28,686 nt of DNA from a virus. The number at the start of each line of letters is the position of its first letter. Position 1 is the first letter of the stretch. The DNA lies in IMG/VR virus record IMGVR_UViG_3300036835_000048, positions 1-28,686 of that record. One strand, given 5' to 3'. Shown here piece by piece: positions 27,426 to 28,267 of this stretch. The notes below the pieces were generated by a model, which ran no database searches, had not been told where the DNA came from, and worked only from the letters and a program-made list of their open reading frames with translations. Made by a program: the position numbers and the translations under genes.

Positions 27426-27454
27426 TTGACATTAAAGAGCATTTATTGTATAGT
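27426..27454 (+). promoter_or_regulatory. promoter of the PEP-CTERM cassette
   Basis: TTGACA (27426-27431), 17-nt spacer, TATAGT (27449-27454), then AGGAGG before ATG 27482. Only the right half-site TATAGTG of the operator is present, so it probably escapes the control seen at 22364 and 28635. Confidence 0.75.
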
Positions 27455-27481
27455 GTCGCAGGGGATAGGAGGACAACACAC

Positions 27482-28219
27482 ATGAGACGATTGCTGCTAC
27501 AGAGCAGGCGTAGCCTGCTAACTACTGCGTTACTTGTTGCGTTCGGTGCCGCTCCTGCTAACGCAAGACTACAGTTGAGTATCAACGCTAACGGTTCGAC
27601 GTTCAGTTGCTTTGATGGGCAGCTTGGTTGCGATCAAAGTGGTGGTGCTAATAACTTGTTAGTTATTAATACTACTATCGGTGGTGCATTTGTTGAGTTA
27701 GCTCTCGCACAGAGTTCATTCGGTTCACCTGTACAAGAGTTACAGTTATCGTCAAGTAATATTCTCAATCTTTCAGGAGCACCTATCGATATTAAACTGT
27801 TAGCGAGTGACACTAACTTTATCGGTCCAGTGTCATTTGTGCAGGAGAGCGCGAGCTTAACGTTCAATAGAGCTATTGGCTCGCCAGCATCTACATTGCA
27901 GTTTTGGGCTGATCCACTTAATACCCAAGGTGCAAACCCAACGAATACTCCGGGTACATTGTTGGATACTGTGAACGGTACGCCGACACTTGACCCTGAT
28001 AGTTTCAGCGGCACTCATGTAACTGCGTTTAATGCGCTTACACCGTTTAGTATGACGGAGGGTGCGTCACTAAACTTAGTGAGCGGTGCATCTGTTACAG
28101 GGTTTAATCAGTCAATGCAGACTGGTGTGCCAGAAGCGTCAACATGGGCCATGTTAGCAATGGGGTTCATGGCAATGGCGTTCGGTGCCGTTACTCGTAA
28201 GCGTATGCGGTTATATTGA
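27482..28219 (+). CDS. secreted PEP-CTERM protein (moron-like cassette)
   Basis: 245 aa from ATG 27482, chosen for AGGAGG 9 nt upstream. A clear signal peptide (MRRLLLQSRRSLLTTALLVA, cleavage likely after ANA at 28), a beta-rich Asn/Gly/Thr-rich mature part with two Cys (about 43 and 50), and a 30-residue PEP-CTERM tail (216-245): VPEASTWAM, a hydrophobic stretch, then RKRMRLY. In bacteria the exosortase system recognises this tail and processes exported proteins. The tail is firm. The function on the infected host surface is unknown. It has its own promoter and terminator. Operator 28067-28082 lies about 45 nt before the tail's codons. Confidence 0.85.
   Translation: MRRLLLQSRRSLLTTALLVAFGAAPANARLQLSINANGSTFSCFDGQLGCDQSGGANNLLVINTTIGGAFVELALAQSSFGSPVQELQLSSSNILNLSGAPIDIKLLASDTNFIGPVSFVQESASLTFNRAIGSPASTLQFWADPLNTQGANPTNTPGTLLDTVNGTPTLDPDSFSGTHVTAFNALTPFSMTEGASLNLVSGASVTGFNQSMQTGVPEASTWAMLAMGFMAMAFGAVTRKRMRLY
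28067..28082 (+). promoter_or_regulatory. operator-like palindrome in the PEP-CTERM gene
   Basis: Perfect arms, centre AACT, encoding SLNLVS, about 45 nt before the sorting-signal codons. Confidence 0.55.
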
Positions 28220-28232
28220 TAACTAACTAAGC

Positions 28233-28267
28233 AAACGAGCCGGTAGATACAACTATCGGCTCGTTTT
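28233..28267 (+). terminator. strong intrinsic terminator of the PEP-CTERM cassette
   Basis: ACGAGCCGGTAG (28235-28246) pairs with CTATCGGCTCGT (28253-28264) with one G-U pair, a 6-nt loop and flanking A/T pairs, followed by TTTTG. It closes the PEP-CTERM cassette. Confidence 0.85.

Follow-up and report, generated by a model that had tools for sequence, protein, structure and literature searches.

A self-contained gene near the end of a phage contig

The stretch of DNA analyzed here (the window) comprises all 28,686 bases of the IMG/VR virus record IMGVR_UViG_3300036835_000048, which is probably a contig fragment. It encodes a terminase, a portal, and a major head protein (Table 1), and the best match of its terminase among isolates was that of a Rhizobium phage (50% identity). 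No tRNA was detected in the 28,686-base window. The cassette of interest, which is situated 467 bases from the contig end, carries a single gene whose limits (ATG at 27482, stop codon at 28217–28219) were read from the sequence. The same frame could alternatively start with TTG at 27446; ATG was preferred because of the Shine–Dalgarno (SD) sequence preceding it.

The original prediction had described this region as encoding a secreted protein (signal peptide, VPEASTWAM-type PEP-CTERM tail) and as having its own promoter, SD sequence, and strong terminator in the layout of a moron. The promoter and the AGGAGG motif are present as described. The former consists of TTGACA (27426–27431), a 17-nt spacer, and TATAGT (27449–27454), and agrees with the consensus at 11 of 12 positions. 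Between positions 21300 and 28686, 28 promoter-like sites were counted, compared with 22.8 ± 4.5 in shuffled sequence, which is approximately the number expected by chance in this AT-rich region. Thus, the site at 27426–27454 is meaningful only through its position. Downstream of the gene, a 12-bp stem (28235–28246 paired with 28253–28264) is followed by TTTT (28264–28267, reading on as TTTTGT). To call it a strong terminator is a fair reading of its calculated stability, but a borderline one, as the terminator scan did not list the hairpin. Across the family, the best hairpin within 110 bases 3′ of the stop codon had a median of −25.6 kcal/mol, as opposed to −17.75 kcal/mol for the controls (n = 67, Mann–Whitney p 5e-15), a comparison that is suggestive only because the controls were random positions in the same loci and mostly coding.

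Table 1. Features of the PEP-CTERM cassette and of its phage context (positions in the window).
Feature	Position	Strand	Evidence
Major head protein (phage context)	9986..11062	-	phrog_267 5.3e-47
Portal/head-tail adaptor (phage context)	14451..16796	-	phrog_332 2.1e-63, SU10_portal
Terminase large subunit (phage context)	19796..21247	-	phrog_2 8.6e-23
Sigma-70-type promoter TTGACA-N17-TATAGT	27426..27454	+	Sequence; consensus scan 11/12
Shine–Dalgarno AGGAGG	27467..27472	+	Sequence; 9 nt before ATG
Phage PEP-CTERM protein gene, 245 aa	27482..28219	+	Open frame, homologues, family purifying selection
Predicted signal peptide, residues 1–28, ends APANA	27482..27565	+	A28/A26 conservation; model helix 3–21
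Predicted mature beta-sandwich domain, residues 29–215	27566..28126	+	AlphaFold2 pLDDT mostly >90; carbohydrate-binding-module-like matches
Predicted PEP-CTERM tail VPEASTWAM + helix + basic cluster, residues 216–245	28127..28216	+	PF07589 and NF035944, sub-threshold alone
Intrinsic-terminator-like hairpin + T-run	28235..28267	+	Sequence; −23.3 kcal/mol; absent from terminator scan list

Several other features of the window were recorded. The products of two genes between 4335 and 8739 resemble tail fibres and contain collagen-like GPxGPx repeats, and the protein encoded at 2541–4313 carries a Peptidase_S74 chaperone domain. A ParB-like/DUF6551 protein is encoded at 25137–26165, for which the search of viral contigs returned no relative. 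On the minus strand, several terminator-like hairpins (21664–21983 and 24855–24872) have a GCGCAG(C/T)AATGCGC core in common and look like one regulatory hairpin repeated across the early region.

Signal peptide and PEP-CTERM tail

The N-terminus of the protein (MRRLLLQSRRSLLTTALLVAFGAAPANA) has the appearance of a signal peptide ending in an A-x-A site, of which A28 was invariant and A26 at least 90% conserved among 62 aligned sequences. A lipoprotein was ruled out, as the site reads AAPANA-RLQ and both a cysteine and a lipobox are absent. The C-terminus (VPEASTWAMLAMGFMAMAFGAVTRKRMRLY) is composed of a PEP motif, a hydrophobic helix, and a basic cluster at the extreme end, in the layout VPEASTWAM-LAMGFMAMAFGAV-TRKRMRLY; in the same 62 sequences, P217, E218, and G228 were invariant and W222 was at least 90% conserved.

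Taken alone, the tail of the window protein stayed below the curated cut-offs of both PF07589 (16.0 bits; cut-off 20.7) and NF035944 (17.2; cut-off 35). Each of the 12 sequences in the first alignment of homologues matched both models (E ≤ 0.1). A PF07589 match with E ≤ 0.05 was present in 31 of 32 viral records and exceeded the cut-off of that model in 30 of them, including the record of L012, the protein of which is 74% identical. The window tail is considered genuine because its relatives have the same three-part tail; homology thus settles its identity as a predicted PEP-CTERM tail despite the sub-threshold score. How often such a pattern occurs by chance was gauged from 80 contigs recruited by their terminase alone (L013–L092): a tail with PE followed by tryptophan was found only in L013, L014, and L030, all of them family members, and three further pattern matches without tryptophan look like noise. 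Together with the homologues, the sequence thus bears out the predicted gene for a secreted protein of this type.

Two PF07589 tails were present in 8 of the 32 viral records, and a second, different PEP-CTERM gene is arranged in tandem in L007 (10701–11474), L012 (10731–11525), L133 (10724–11527), and L195 (10925–11758). A separate observation concerns L009 (6270–6370) and L010 (1000–1090), phage contigs with 98.4% identity along 4.6 kb: the gene differs between them in its leader and signal peptide, its mature part being nearly unchanged.

Distribution of the family in viruses and bacteria

With the window protein as the query, 11 related loci were found (49–74% identity in the best segment); with an alignment of relatives, the number of confirmed loci in viral contigs was at least 125, of which 79 distinct ones were kept. 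The 62 aligned homologues are 25–74% identical to the window protein and have conserved both the signal-peptide motif and the tripartite tail. Matches to the family HMM were retained when they derived from a viral contig, scored at least 40, covered nearly the full length, were closed, and lay on the plus strand. This left 76 matches, 66 of them with a distinct mature sequence; one minus-strand match was set aside. The tree and all counts of genomic context are based on these 66 loci plus the window (67). Alignment A2 consists of the window and 61 of these 66 loci and omits L009, L151, L167, L196, and L197, which are near copies (pairs among the rows being L009/L010, L150/L151, and L166/L167) or the most distant rows.

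A different picture emerged for isolates. Among 50,697 phage records, neither the window protein (E ≤ 1), nor the 32-residue family tail of a relative, nor the tandem second gene had a match, and a divergent family member had only two, at chance level (E 5–6). The window protein was likewise without a match in 72,556 plasmid records (E ≤ 0.1). The notion that PEP-CTERM proteins are rarely reported in phages, which came with the proposal to search phage databases for such tails, therefore holds for isolates but not for uncultivated phages.

Scanning of bacterial sequences yielded at least 40 loci. Among the matches listed, none spans the query, 36 of 40 begin at residue 136 or later, and 39 carry an alphaproteobacterial label (for the most part Bradyrhizobium and further Rhizobiales, Sphingomonas, and Caulobacteraceae), the exception being labelled Frankia. 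A model of the mature domain (A3) was also used to search genomes related to that holding the Bradyrhizobium erythrophlei locus L110, with the best first-pass candidates being scored. Within the same (alphaproteobacterial) class, 385 genomes gave two matches to this model, both partial and weak (E 2e-5 and 7e-4); the 296 genomes of the same family gave none. The positive control recovered 12 of 12 viral records, several of which encode proteins less than 40% identical to that of the window. Bacterial genomes thus appear to have the tail in common with the phages, and the mature domain appears to be essentially absent from those searched.

Genomic position of the gene

A terminase or portal gene lies at most 1.6 kb from the PEP-CTERM gene in 22 of the 67 loci. 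At other loci, the gene adjoins a helicase, and in L143, an integrase gene ends ∼160 bases downstream of it. The window copy is located on the opposite-strand arm and has a putative promoter of its own; in the nearest terminase kin carrying the gene (L013 and L014), the copies follow right after the terminase and represent other versions of it. On the protein tree, the terminase/portal label requires 14 changes, nine of which are forced by well-supported branches, although contigs that end early may inflate this count. The gene is accessory, as its position and presence vary among related phages, and its recurrence in viral contigs at differing genomic positions supports the view of a moron-like, self-contained cassette.

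A tyrosine integrase was encoded in 6 of 33 records and not in the window fragment. Most carriers are, therefore, not demonstrably temperate, and lysogenic conversion is not the proven rule. Copies adjoining the terminase or portal could mean late expression, at a time when superinfection exclusion matters less.

Two other neighbors were observed. Often, a gene situated close to that of the PEP-CTERM protein codes for a proline- and glycine-rich product with HPDHGLPG-like repeats (L157, 607–1305, and 13 other loci); the two genes are co-oriented in all 14 cases, and the product has no PHROG match. A tRNA-Tyr (GTA) directly follows the PEP-CTERM gene in L005 (10479–10562), L013 (12376–12460), and L030 (3632–3716); these represent two viruses (L005 and L013/L030) and are the sole scanned carrier loci with any tRNA.

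Fold and conservation of the mature domain

An AlphaFold2 model based on 62 sequences (pLDDT 90.5) predicts a helix at residues 3–21, beta strands between residues 31 and 215, and a second helix at residues 219–244. The best structural matches in VIA-align were Bdellovibrio Bd1399 (Z 9.1) and surface glycan-binding protein B (SGBP-B; Z 8.8), followed by a glucosyltransferase domain (Z 8.2), CBM61 (Z 8.2), and a phage tailspike domain (Z 8.1). Sequence identity to the structural neighbors in the top list was 6–9%, and Z scores of 8–9 are weak and common for beta-sandwiches. Matches to Eph receptors, capsid jelly rolls, and the viral library were at fold level only. A sequence search of solved structures returned just two matches (both taken as chance, E 0.11), and none of the PHROG families matched the window protein. 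The predicted mature domain resembles carbohydrate-binding beta-sandwiches, for which a Z score of 8–9 is not decisive, and we consider that it binds a glycan about as probable as that it does not.

The mature domain contains many residues that are invariant or nearly so among the 62 sequences. For 62 of 64 close pairs with a computable ratio, dN/dS was between 0.01 and 0.46; the protein sequence is therefore maintained by purifying selection.

Probable dependence on a host exosortase

Exosortase (PF09721) was found in none of 33 viral records, including the window. Of 10 bacterial genomes that carry such tails and served as a proxy for the host, 9 were positive. Four of the nine bacterial enzymes were typed, and all scored best with NF035943 (exosortase V, XrtV), with scores of 320.9, 294.0, 313.3, and 346.7, three of which are at or over the cut-off of 313. 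The tails themselves point in the same direction: PEPSTW (46 of 72 bacterial and 42 of 98 viral tails) and PEASTW (9 of 72 and 13 of 98) were the two commonest words in both sets, counted with a loose pattern that admitted some non-tails. As the viral records contain the substrate but no exosortase, the phages would depend on the enzyme of the host. The phage product is most likely processed by host exosortase, presumably XrtV of an alphaproteobacterium. Export itself is well supported, and that it is coupled to exosortase processing is very probable judging from sequence and predicted structure.

Possible function of the phage protein

The gene, its tail, and its family reside in phages; what the phage gains has to be deduced. 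In the scheme that we favor, the protein would be exported via the Sec pathway and held in the inner membrane by its tail helix until host exosortase V recognizes and cleaves the tail. The beta-sandwich would then reach the cell surface or the exopolysaccharide and most likely bind a surface or matrix glycan there, thereby masking or altering the adsorption site. Sibling phages would, as a consequence, neither superinfect the cell nor bind uselessly to its debris. The original prediction had likewise suggested an altered host surface or biofilm matrix, for example, to block superinfection. Such a block to superinfection or readsorption is a tentative assignment, to which we give somewhat less than an even chance. 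The reading as a whole, that is, a mobile accessory gene (moron) that uses the host exosortase to place a domain resembling glycan-binding modules on the surface or in the matrix, likely against superinfection or readsorption, may be right or wrong with about equal probability. The same balance applies to its generalization, namely, that many uncultivated phage lineages infecting Alphaproteobacteria hijack the host exosortase so that a virus-specific glycan-binding protein covers infected cells or their matrix.

PMC12188702 reports that loss of exosortase abolishes biofilm formation in Nostoc, which makes a role as an exosortase decoy or in the matrix a serious rival. As a decoy, the phage product would flood the enzyme, leaving unprocessed those host PEP-CTERM proteins that tie the exopolysaccharide to the cell, so that a loosened matrix would let progeny leave the aggregates. 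Besides the Nostoc phenotype, the copying of bacterial substrates by the phage tail and the records with two tails would fit this idea; a decoy, however, has no need for a conserved mature domain, yet this part has its many (near-)invariant residues and is under purifying selection, which is why we regard the decoy as unlikely. Alternatively, the displayed domain might bind virions or debris within the biofilm; progeny would thus stay close to new hosts, or infected cells would be surrounded by a thicker matrix. Both the surface-directed tail and the carbohydrate-binding-like fold, with its match to a phage tailspike domain, are compatible with such an anchor; no virion-binding partner was found, the mechanism is by analogy only, and we consider it very unlikely.

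A protein of the virion, of its assembly, or of lysis, the C-terminal helix of which merely resembles a PEP-CTERM tail, would account for the 22 of 67 copies close to a terminase or portal and for others near endolysin and tail-fibre genes. This is difficult to reconcile with a motif kept family-wide together with a cleavable signal peptide, with viral tails that follow the bacterial grammar, and with a gene that has no fixed position, occurs in other versions in the nearest terminase kin, and lacks a PHROG match; we therefore judge it quite unlikely. Lastly, the proximity of the cassette to the end of a probable contig fragment might indicate that host DNA was captured through an assembly error, a concern raised together with the original prediction, or was wrongly binned as viral. 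This was not borne out. Full-length relatives occur in viral contigs, a gene for terminase, portal, capsid, tail fibre, or endolysin is located within ∼9 kb at 41 of the 67 loci, and the search with the mature-domain model found all viral controls and next to nothing in the bacterial genomes searched; host capture was therefore rejected on the viral spread of the family and the near absence of the domain from those genomes, and we consider its probability minute. A phage accessory protein that would be displayed via the host exosortase is the explanation that we favor.

Comparison with known systems

Among phage proteins, those known to reach the host envelope are lipoproteins (such as Llp of T5) or membrane proteins. 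Thus, envelope-directed accessory proteins of phages are nothing new, and it is the exosortase route that would be an unusual way of sorting them. In the literature searched, which mostly excluded subscription papers and preprints, no report of a phage-encoded PEP-CTERM protein was found; passages of PMC12642866 and PMC4886054 deal with bacterial PEP-CTERM genes, and in PMC1569441, the words "phage" and "virus" are absent. Recurrence of the gene family in many uncultivated phages suggests that phages redecorate infected cells. If true, phage competition would be linked to the poorly understood exosortase/matrix system, exosortase would be a step exploited by phages, the gene would be a mobile tool for competition between phages or for escape from biofilms, and the family would constitute a natural set of exosortase V substrates.

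With the PEP-CTERM proteins of Alphaproteobacteria (PEPxxWA-CTERM, NF035944; PF07589; exosortase V, NF035943), the window protein shares the signal peptide, the PEP motif, the hydrophobic helix, the basic tail, the organization as a single-gene unit, and the words PEPSTW/PEASTW. It differs from them in being encoded by a phage and in its mature domain, which seems essentially absent from the bacterial genomes searched. CBM61, CBM16, and SGBP-B resemble it in their beta-sandwich (Z 7–9 over 115–135 residues); with just 5–10% sequence identity, the likeness is one of fold only. The functional counterpart among phages would be Llp of phage T5, a superinfection-exclusion lipoprotein (PMC9586334); Llp is a periplasmic outer-membrane lipoprotein jamming FhuA. 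Both are small, envelope-targeted phage proteins on a sorting route of the host. Unlike Llp, which achieves superinfection exclusion through a route other than exosortase, the window protein is devoid of a lipobox and has a predicted beta-sandwich fold, and exosortase would take the place of lipoprotein sorting.
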